Assembly: GCA_021646405.1 (NCBI GenBank)
Contig: SOER01000027.1
Coordinates: forward strand, 1-42,476
Source: Candidatus Loosdrechtia aerotolerans
GTDB taxonomy: Bacteria; Planctomycetota; Brocadiia; Brocadiales; Brocadiaceae
DNA: 42,476 bases
Direction: 5' to 3'
The position numbers were made by a program, and so were the translations under genes. Below the pieces are notes generated by a model. The model had not been told where the DNA came from. It made no database searches and saw only the letters and a program-made list of their open reading frames with translations. This document shows positions 1,089 through 2,710 of the stretch, in pieces. Positions within the stretch are counted from its first letter, which is position 1. Each line of letters begins with the position of its first letter.

Positions 1089-1181
1089 CTACTTTTTGAA
1101 AATCTTCGTATAACAGAAAACCACCAGGGTCGTAACAATTCCCCAGGCAAAAATCATGAATACCCAACCTGAAAAACTCAT
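1089..1181 (-). CDS. MetS-like small subunit of NSS transporter (30 aa)
   Basis: A 30-residue single-pass membrane peptide, MSFSGWVFMIF followed by a hydrophobic helix and a basic FKK end. Its ATG overlaps the TGA of the LeuT-like gene (ATGA at 1178-1181), so the two are translationally coupled. Very short one-helix proteins of this shape follow genes of the neurotransmitter:sodium symporter family; MetS, needed with MetP for methionine import in Corynebacterium, is the known example. That this peptide plays the same role is inferred from position and shape. A longer start at 1205 would add eight residues (MEEKENNT), but the coupled ATG at 1181 fits better. Confidence 0.7.
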   Translation of the reverse strand: MSFSGWVFMIFAWGIVTTLVVFCYTKIFKK

Positions 1182-2710
1182 TGTGTTGTTCTCTTTTTCC
1201 TCCATGCCATATGAACAAGGAATCCGGCACCAGCAAAAAATATCATCAAATAACCACGTGCAATCCATTTGGGAAGGGATGTTTTCACTACCTCTTGCCA
1301 GCCATACTGGACCATCCATCCTACAAAAATAATGATAAGAACAATGGGTGTAACGTATTTACAGATATAGAAAAATATCCCGGGAATACGGACCTCTGCC
1401 CCCCTGTTTATCTCTTTCCATGCTTTTTCTGAATCGAAGACCCAGAAAAACAGGATAATCTCAACTGCCGCAAAAAGGGTAATAAAAAACGTACCTGCCC
1501 AAAAATCAAGTTCATCAAGGGTTCCGTTGATAAAGATTGGTATATGGGAAGAGAGAAACAGAAATCCTCCAACATACCACGCTGCATGTTTTCTCTCTAC
1601 AGCAAACTCATCTTCAAGAAAGGCAATTGCAGGTTGGGCAAGGGCAACAATGGAAGTGATACCGGCAAAAAAGAGAAGTCCAAACCAGAGGAATCCAAAG
1701 AGATGCCCAAAAGGGATAAACGAAAAGACCGCTGGCATTGAAACAAAAGCAAGGCGAAAAGCACCTTCCTGTGCAATCGTTTCGGCATGAGAAACACCAA
1801 AGAACACAACGGCTGCCGGAATAGCAATAGAACCACCGAGGACAACCTCCGCGAATTCATTGGTAGCGGCAGTAGTTAGCCCGGAAAGGGCAATGTCGTC
1901 TTTCTCGCGTAGATAACTGGCATAGGTAAGTATTGCCCCCATTCCTAAACTAAGGGTGAAAAACATCTGTCCGGCTGCAGCAAGCCAAATATTCAAGTCC
2001 AGAAGTTTTGAAAAATTCGGTTCCCAAAGGAAGGCAAGTCCTTTTAAAGGATTATTCTCCGGACGGACGGGAGCATCTAAGGTGAAAACCCGTATCACAA
2101 GAAAAATAGCAAAGAGGAACAAGAGAGGCATAGCAACCTTTGCCAGGAGTTCAATCCCTCTTGATATTCCACGGGCAAGGACCCAAATACTTACAAAAAG
2201 TGTAAGGGTAAAGATCACGTAAGCAAGGGAAGAAGGTATAAGAAAAAGTTCCCCGGTACCGATGTATTCAGAAAGGAAACCGGAAAATGGGTGCAATGAC
2301 TCTTCAAGTGATCCAGCGTGTTCAACCTTTGGTAAATCCTGACAAAGAGAAAAAATGCTATATCCGACAGTCCAGGAGGCAATGTATGTATAGTAAACCA
2401 CAATAGTCAAAGGACATACGATACCGATAACCCCAAGGTATTTCGCAGCCCTGTTCTTCCAGAGGAGGTGAAATACTCCCGGGCTCGTTCCGTGTCCGCG
2501 GACACCACCGTATCTTCCCATAGACCATTCTACCCACATCAGTGGAATGCCAAGAATTAAGAACGAGACAAAATAAGGGATCATAAAGGCACCACCATGA
2601 TATTTCGCAGCCTGAACGGGAAACCGTAAAAAATTCCCAAGCCCGACGGCATTTCCGGTTACCGCCAGAATCAATCCAAGTCGTGTTCCCCAGTGTTCAC
2701 GATTCGCCAT
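1178..2710 (-). CDS. LeuT-type sodium:amino acid symporter (NSS family)
   Basis: Inner-membrane protein of 510 residues with about 12 membrane helices. It is strikingly close to Aquifex LeuT (519 aa): [20 protein letters not shown] at the N-terminus carries the unwound TM1 substrate/sodium site, [10 protein letters not shown] is TM6, [15 protein letters not shown] is TM7 and [14 protein letters not shown] is TM8. The TM7 Glu matching LeuT Glu290 is kept, which predicts chloride independence. By alignment to remembered LeuT, pocket residues Phe259 and Ile359 are Met and Leu here, so the preferred amino acid may differ. The start is well supported: AGGAGG lies 4 nt before the ATG. The 3' end overlaps the small MetS-like gene. 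Sodium-driven uptake of a neutral amino acid is the likely job. Confidence 0.92.
   Translation of the reverse strand: [510 protein letters not shown]

Follow-up and report, generated by a model that had tools for sequence, protein, structure and literature searches.

A conserved single-helix protein encoded with LeuT-type amino-acid symporters and its probable relationship to MetS-like subunits

Introduction

A precedent for a small accessory protein in the NSS family is MetPS of C. glutamicum, an NSS transporter with the small subunit MetS, as described in the papers that cite Trotschel et al. (2008) (PMC5105988, PMC6123352). MetS-like subunits are represented by the NCBIfam family NF033493 and by Pfam PF16951. 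Single-pass ancillary proteins are also known for SLC6A19 and SLC6A20, namely collectrin and ACE2 (PMC10491607), and small membrane subunits of other systems include KdpF, CydX, AcrZ and the CcmD-type proteins (PMC10903887).

LeuT underpins the mechanistic models of SLC6 transporters and is the standard structural model for the brain neurotransmitter transporters. Its transport rate, its oligomeric state and the effects of lipid and detergent on it have been investigated with the large chain alone. Here we describe a LeuT-type gene and a small frame that overlaps its end, both found in a 42,476-nt stretch of Candidatus Loosdrechtia aerotolerans DNA (contig SOER01000027.1), the whole of which is referred to below as the window.

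The LeuT-type gene and the small frame beside it

An initial annotation had described a LeuT-like gene joined through an ATGA overlap to a peptide with one hydrophobic helix and a basic tail. Both open reading frames and the overlap were confirmed (Table 1), as was the character of the peptide, which consists of a single hydrophobic stretch followed by a short basic tail. The transporter scored 186.6 bits against PF00209 (cut-off 27) and 82.4 against NF037979 (cut-off 50). It shares 54% identity with LeuT, in comparison with which it has kept all of the Na1 and Na2 ligands, the R30-D404 gate and E290, the changes at the substrate site being small (V104I, F259M and I359L). Judged from these sequence comparisons, it is a member of the NSS/SLC6 (SNF) family of the LeuT type, as had been claimed, and Na+-coupled amino-acid transport is predicted for it. 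It is also the sole NSS gene of its 3.26-Mb draft genome. Since the Nudix-like gene on one side is convergent with the two genes and the Smr-like gene on the other lies ~390 bp upstream of them, the transporter gene and the small gene form a compact pair.

Table 1. Features of the locus and of the LeuT-encoding genome G080. Positions are those of the window unless a genome is named.
Feature	Position	Strand	Evidence
LeuT-type Na+:amino-acid symporter (NSS/SNF), 510 aa	1178..2710	-	PF00209 E=1e-54; LeuT structures E~1e-178
Single-helix partner, 30 residues, MSFSGWVFMIFAWGIVTTLVVFCYTKIFKK	1089..1181	-	conserved coding frame, profile family, fusions, remote MetS-like homology
ATGA stop/start overlap of both genes; likely termination-reinitiation site (coupling inferred)	1178..1181	-	sequence; offset -4 elsewhere
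Nudix-like gene, convergent with the pair	357-974	+	named by inspection
Smr-like gene, upstream of the pair	3101-3358	-	named by inspection
Unlinked partner, 51 codons, MKGEALIFMLFSWLLICSLSTFCFTMLLTHQEKPSEKRETFISEEEREEIT	G080 C1:1232305-1232460	-	E=1.3e-13

Elsewhere in the window, a long minus-strand cluster (8645-25786) encoding glycosyltransferases, polymerase/export-type membrane proteins and a sugar-phosphate transferase was recognised by inspection as an exopolysaccharide locus. A transposase-like ORF (40995-42347, also by inspection) lies near the contig end, perhaps where the assembly breaks.

No Pfam or NCBIfam match was obtained for the 30-residue peptide of the window. The initial annotation had staked the subunit reading on conservation of the small frame in related genomes and on a synonymous-site bias, and both were found. 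The pN/pS of the small frame was 0.29 among five Brocadiales and 0.16, 0.22, 0.20, 0.20 and 0.18 in five further groups, against 0.83-2.1 in the two shifted frames, and whole-genome searches returned profile matches in about ten phyla with E-values of 1e-10 to 1e-18. The low pN/pS and the cross-phylum matches show that the frame is not due to chance; it is a coding gene under purifying selection. An alternative start, at an in-frame upstream ATG (ATG or GTG in the relatives), would add eight residues, but the start within ATGA is favoured because the homologues in other phyla begin there. One face of the helix is conserved (M9, S12, W13, V16, L19 and C23), with a conservation moment that was matched by 52 of 5000 shuffles.

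Distribution and linkage of the partner family

Relatives of LeuT were sampled at 56 loci from GTDB genomes, in addition to those of the window's own order (5 of 62 genomes). Within this set (L001-L061) there were 59 assessable loci, near-copies included and thus to be read as loci and not as independent events, at which the small partner was linked in 45 cases, fused in eight and neither in six. Matches to the linked small protein start between -11 and +14 relative to the LeuT stop, with an offset of -4 in 30 of the 45; the ORF directly 3' of this stop, mostly reached through ATGA, has 30-58 codons and encodes one helix. The linked form was seen in Brocadiales, Thermodesulfobacteriota, Deltaproteobacteria (MAGs as deposited), Desulfurobacteriaceae and Omnitrophota, and also in one Acidobacteriota MAG, Spirochaetota, Armatimonadota and Hydrogenedentota. 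By profile search, a partner homologue adjacent or fused to LeuT-type genes was found in about ten phyla, the taxonomy of MAGs being used as deposited; part of the apparent absences may be assembly gaps. A candidate partner also accompanies a Bacillota NSS (L213). On a tree of 91 rows, four changes of presence or absence were counted, and nine changes when all arrangements were considered. Small ORFs lying 150-190 nt after LeuT at three loci (L112, L117, L123) were considered as partners and rejected; they represent a different, longer protein and were left uncounted.

The initial annotation had proposed a search for the peptide downstream of LeuT orthologues in Aquificota and Planctomycetota. 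Of the 294 Planctomycetota genomes searched, 43 had the partner family, which outside Brocadiales stood directly after an NSS gene in 24 of 25 inspected loci. In the LeuT-bearing Aquificales the partner is mostly unlinked.

The genome that encodes LeuT

The name Aquificales is used here for the order that holds LeuT, of which 112 genomes were analysed. In its LeuT-bearing group no partner ORF is found adjacent to LeuT, which was initially taken to mean that the partner had been lost. That reading was overturned by a genome-wide search with profile A2, in which most of these genomes proved to have a copy at another site. One of them (G080) encodes a protein that is identical to the crystallised LeuT over all 513 residues, and its partner gene starts 10 nt past the stop codon of a recognisable tyrS gene, with leuT ~230 kb away. 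The contrast that had been drawn between the window pair and LeuT as a single polypeptide changes accordingly, given that the LeuT-encoding genome has an unlinked partner gene.

The MKGxALxFM start and the EEIT end of the G080 partner match those of the linked partners of Thermodesulfobacteriota and Desulfurobacteriaceae, the transporters of which fall together with these LeuTs on the tree (SH-aLRT 92). The neighbourhoods of the unlinked gene differ among the other relatives (cdsA/thioesterase, fabD/ndk and gltX, named by inspection), and repeated relocation with retention of the gene argues for a selected role that is independent of hitch-hiking with leuT. A search of the PDB found the partner in no chain, LeuT structures included. 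No paper on a small partner of LeuT was found in the open-access literature, which is weak evidence of novelty.

The acidic tail ending in EEIT is common to unlinked Aquificota and linked Desulfurobacteriaceae partners (L195:1447-1602 on the minus strand, L191, L196-L199, L201 and L008-L015) and may act as a signal for binding or sorting; acidic tails of another type (e.g. ..DTHDRDD and ..ETPDHDT) end many of the Planctomycetota NSS partners (L233-L246). One Aquificota LeuT group (L052-L057, e.g. L054:2992-4848) carries an apparently beta-rich insert of ~105 residues between the segments that match TM5 and TM6, and the partner of this group is unlinked (L079, L193) or was not found. In the LeuT proteins of Armatimonadota (L046:2983-4836, L047, L049) a different insert, ~90-100 residues long, is located in an earlier loop, and the adjacent partner is kept.

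Co-inheritance of partner and transporter

Of the 65 Aquificales genomes with a LeuT-type gene, 57 had the partner, as did 2 of the 28 without one and none of the 19 with a divergent NSS only (Fisher tests 7e-14 and 7e-13, in which shared ancestry is ignored). The exceptions, part of which are draft genomes, comprise eight LeuT genomes without a detectable copy and two copies without a detected LeuT. The divergent NSS group of the same order (L141-L150, L159-L163; G114-G136) is ~44% identical to the window protein, and no partner was detectable for the loci L141-L150 and L159-L163, either linked or unlinked, making them a natural negative control. In the order of the window organism, the partner occurred in all five LeuT genomes versus none of the 15 others sampled.

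Transporter and partner distances were also correlated, with a Mantel r of 0.65 over 69 pairs (0 of 2000 permutations) and an r of 0.91 for the ten unlinked pairs (again 0 of 2000 permutations). Both the co-inheritance and the correlation of distances are partly due to species phylogeny.

Natural fusions and topology

In a group assigned to Acidobacteriota/Aminicenantes, the transporter ORF itself opens with the partner sequence (L034, L035, L038-L041, L059 and L060), and a second fused copy is present in one genome of this group (L081). Wherever the transporter end is present at the fused loci, it is followed by no small ORF, and the tree places the fused rows in a single clade (SH-aLRT 99). 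Such natural fusions argue for a physical association of partner and transporter. The N-terminus of LeuT is established as cytoplasmic, and since the C-terminal end of the fusion helix leads into it, the partner helix would run N-out and C-in, an orientation with which K/R at position 26 and beyond agrees. AlphaFold2 models of two fusions (44 and 24 sequences) gave a confident helix at residues 7-33 (block pLDDT 94 and 88), a disordered linker and the LeuT fold, with pTM values (0.91 and 0.89) that are dominated by LeuT. The Foldseek TM-score of 0.92 to LeuT, by target length, confirms the LeuT fold only.

Relation to MetS-like subunits

The small subunit MetS, which some NSS transporters require, had been offered by the initial annotation as an analogy for the peptide, and part of this comparison stood. 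When the new family was compared by hhalign with a small MetS-like alignment (A4, built from NF033493 matches in Planctomycetota), the whole helix was aligned with a probability of 94-96% and a score of 29-41, with controls of shuffled columns scoring at most 16-22. Membership of the curated MetS family, on the other hand, was rejected. The peptide of the window has no NF033493 or PF16951 match; the best of the 27 members of A1 (E=0.032) and the best of the 25 members of A3 (E=2.9e-4) scored below the cut-offs of the MetS family, and PF16951 gave no match. The A4 sequences have an invariant Gly-Gly pair halfway along the helix, whereas the window peptide has TT at this place and the new family no such pair.

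The new family and the MetS-like subunits are probably homologous, the shortness of the helices making the match suggestive and not final, and the new family is best described, as far as sequence comparison goes, as a separate, unannotated branch of the MetS-like NSS subunits. The partner may resemble MetS in function and, by analogy, also collectrin/ACE2 in their relation to SLC6A19. MetS-like subunits proper (NF033493) occur in some Planctomycetota (L247-L262), mostly in genomes other than those with the new family.

Proposed role and alternative explanations

The 30-residue peptide is very likely, with binding and function that we infer, a dedicated subunit of the LeuT-type symporter, constitutive and made up of a single helix, and a divergent homologue of the NSS subunits of the MetS type. 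Termination-reinitiation at ATGA would give roughly equal amounts of both proteins, after which the helix would insert N-out and C-in and its conserved face would pack on the lipid-facing outer surface of the transporter. Once bound, it may stabilise or fold the transporter, or set the rate of transport. The helix would not contribute to the substrate site or the Na+ sites, which the large chain provides in full. When produced by itself in E. coli, LeuT binds its substrate and transports it in vitro; neither folding nor catalysis therefore depends strictly on the partner, which would be expected to modulate transport and not to be an essential catalytic part.

The in vitro function of LeuT alone would also suit a small membrane protein with a regulatory or chaperone-like role, contacting LeuT transiently and non-stoichiometrically in insertion, quality control or regulation of activity, and the unlinked copies in housekeeping operons (such as that of tyrS) would fit a regulator that is expressed separately. 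We consider this unlikely, however, as the stable fusions of one clade and the 4-base-overlap adjacency at most loci are better explained by a constant 1:1 partner. That the peptide is an independent membrane protein with a function of its own, merely sharing the transcript, might be argued from the distance between the two genes in LeuT-bearing Aquificaceae, but the transporter fusions, the co-occurrence with LeuT-type genes and the NSS-specific adjacency throughout Planctomycetota make it highly improbable. The frame has only 30 codons and no curated-family match, as might be expected of a chance ORF without product; its pN/pS (0.29 for Brocadiales and 0.16-0.22 for the five further groups, compared with 0.83 or more for the other frames) and the matches to its profile in about ten phyla (E-values of 1e-10 to 1e-18) leave that explanation with a negligible probability.

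If the peptide is indeed a dedicated subunit, the same subunit is linked, unlinked or fused, depending on the lineage, and work on LeuT may have lacked a part that naturally belongs to it. It is a real possibility, although we would stop just short of calling it probable, that LeuT is natively a heteromer, in which the unlinked 51-codon one-helix subunit encoded next to tyrS in A. aeolicus, absent from the LeuT structures of the PDB, would on binding alter stability, oligomeric state or transport rate. With one identifiable partner gene in the genome that encodes LeuT, this can be tested directly.

Comparison with known systems

Like MetS, the partner is short, has one helix and is encoded together with an NSS transporter; unlike MetS, the new family has SW and (F/Y)CF positions, a LeuT-type transporter as its partner, N-terminal fusions and unlinked copies. 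The transporter of the window resembles LeuT of Aquifex aeolicus both in overall identity and in the conserved Na1, Na2, gate and E290 positions, whereas leuT of A. aeolicus, unlike the gene of the window pair, has no adjacent partner, its copy being distant and beside tyrS. With KdpF, CydX, AcrZ and the CcmD-type proteins, the partner shares the form of a tiny single-helix protein associated with a large membrane complex; those proteins have unrelated partners, however, and the family searches found no homology to them. Collectrin and ACE2 are comparable as single-pass ancillary proteins for the same transporter family, but they are eukaryotic, much larger and have a role in trafficking, and no homology is claimed. 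If the proposed subunit role is true, the partner would be a bacterial counterpart to these ancillary proteins of SLC6A19 and SLC6A20.
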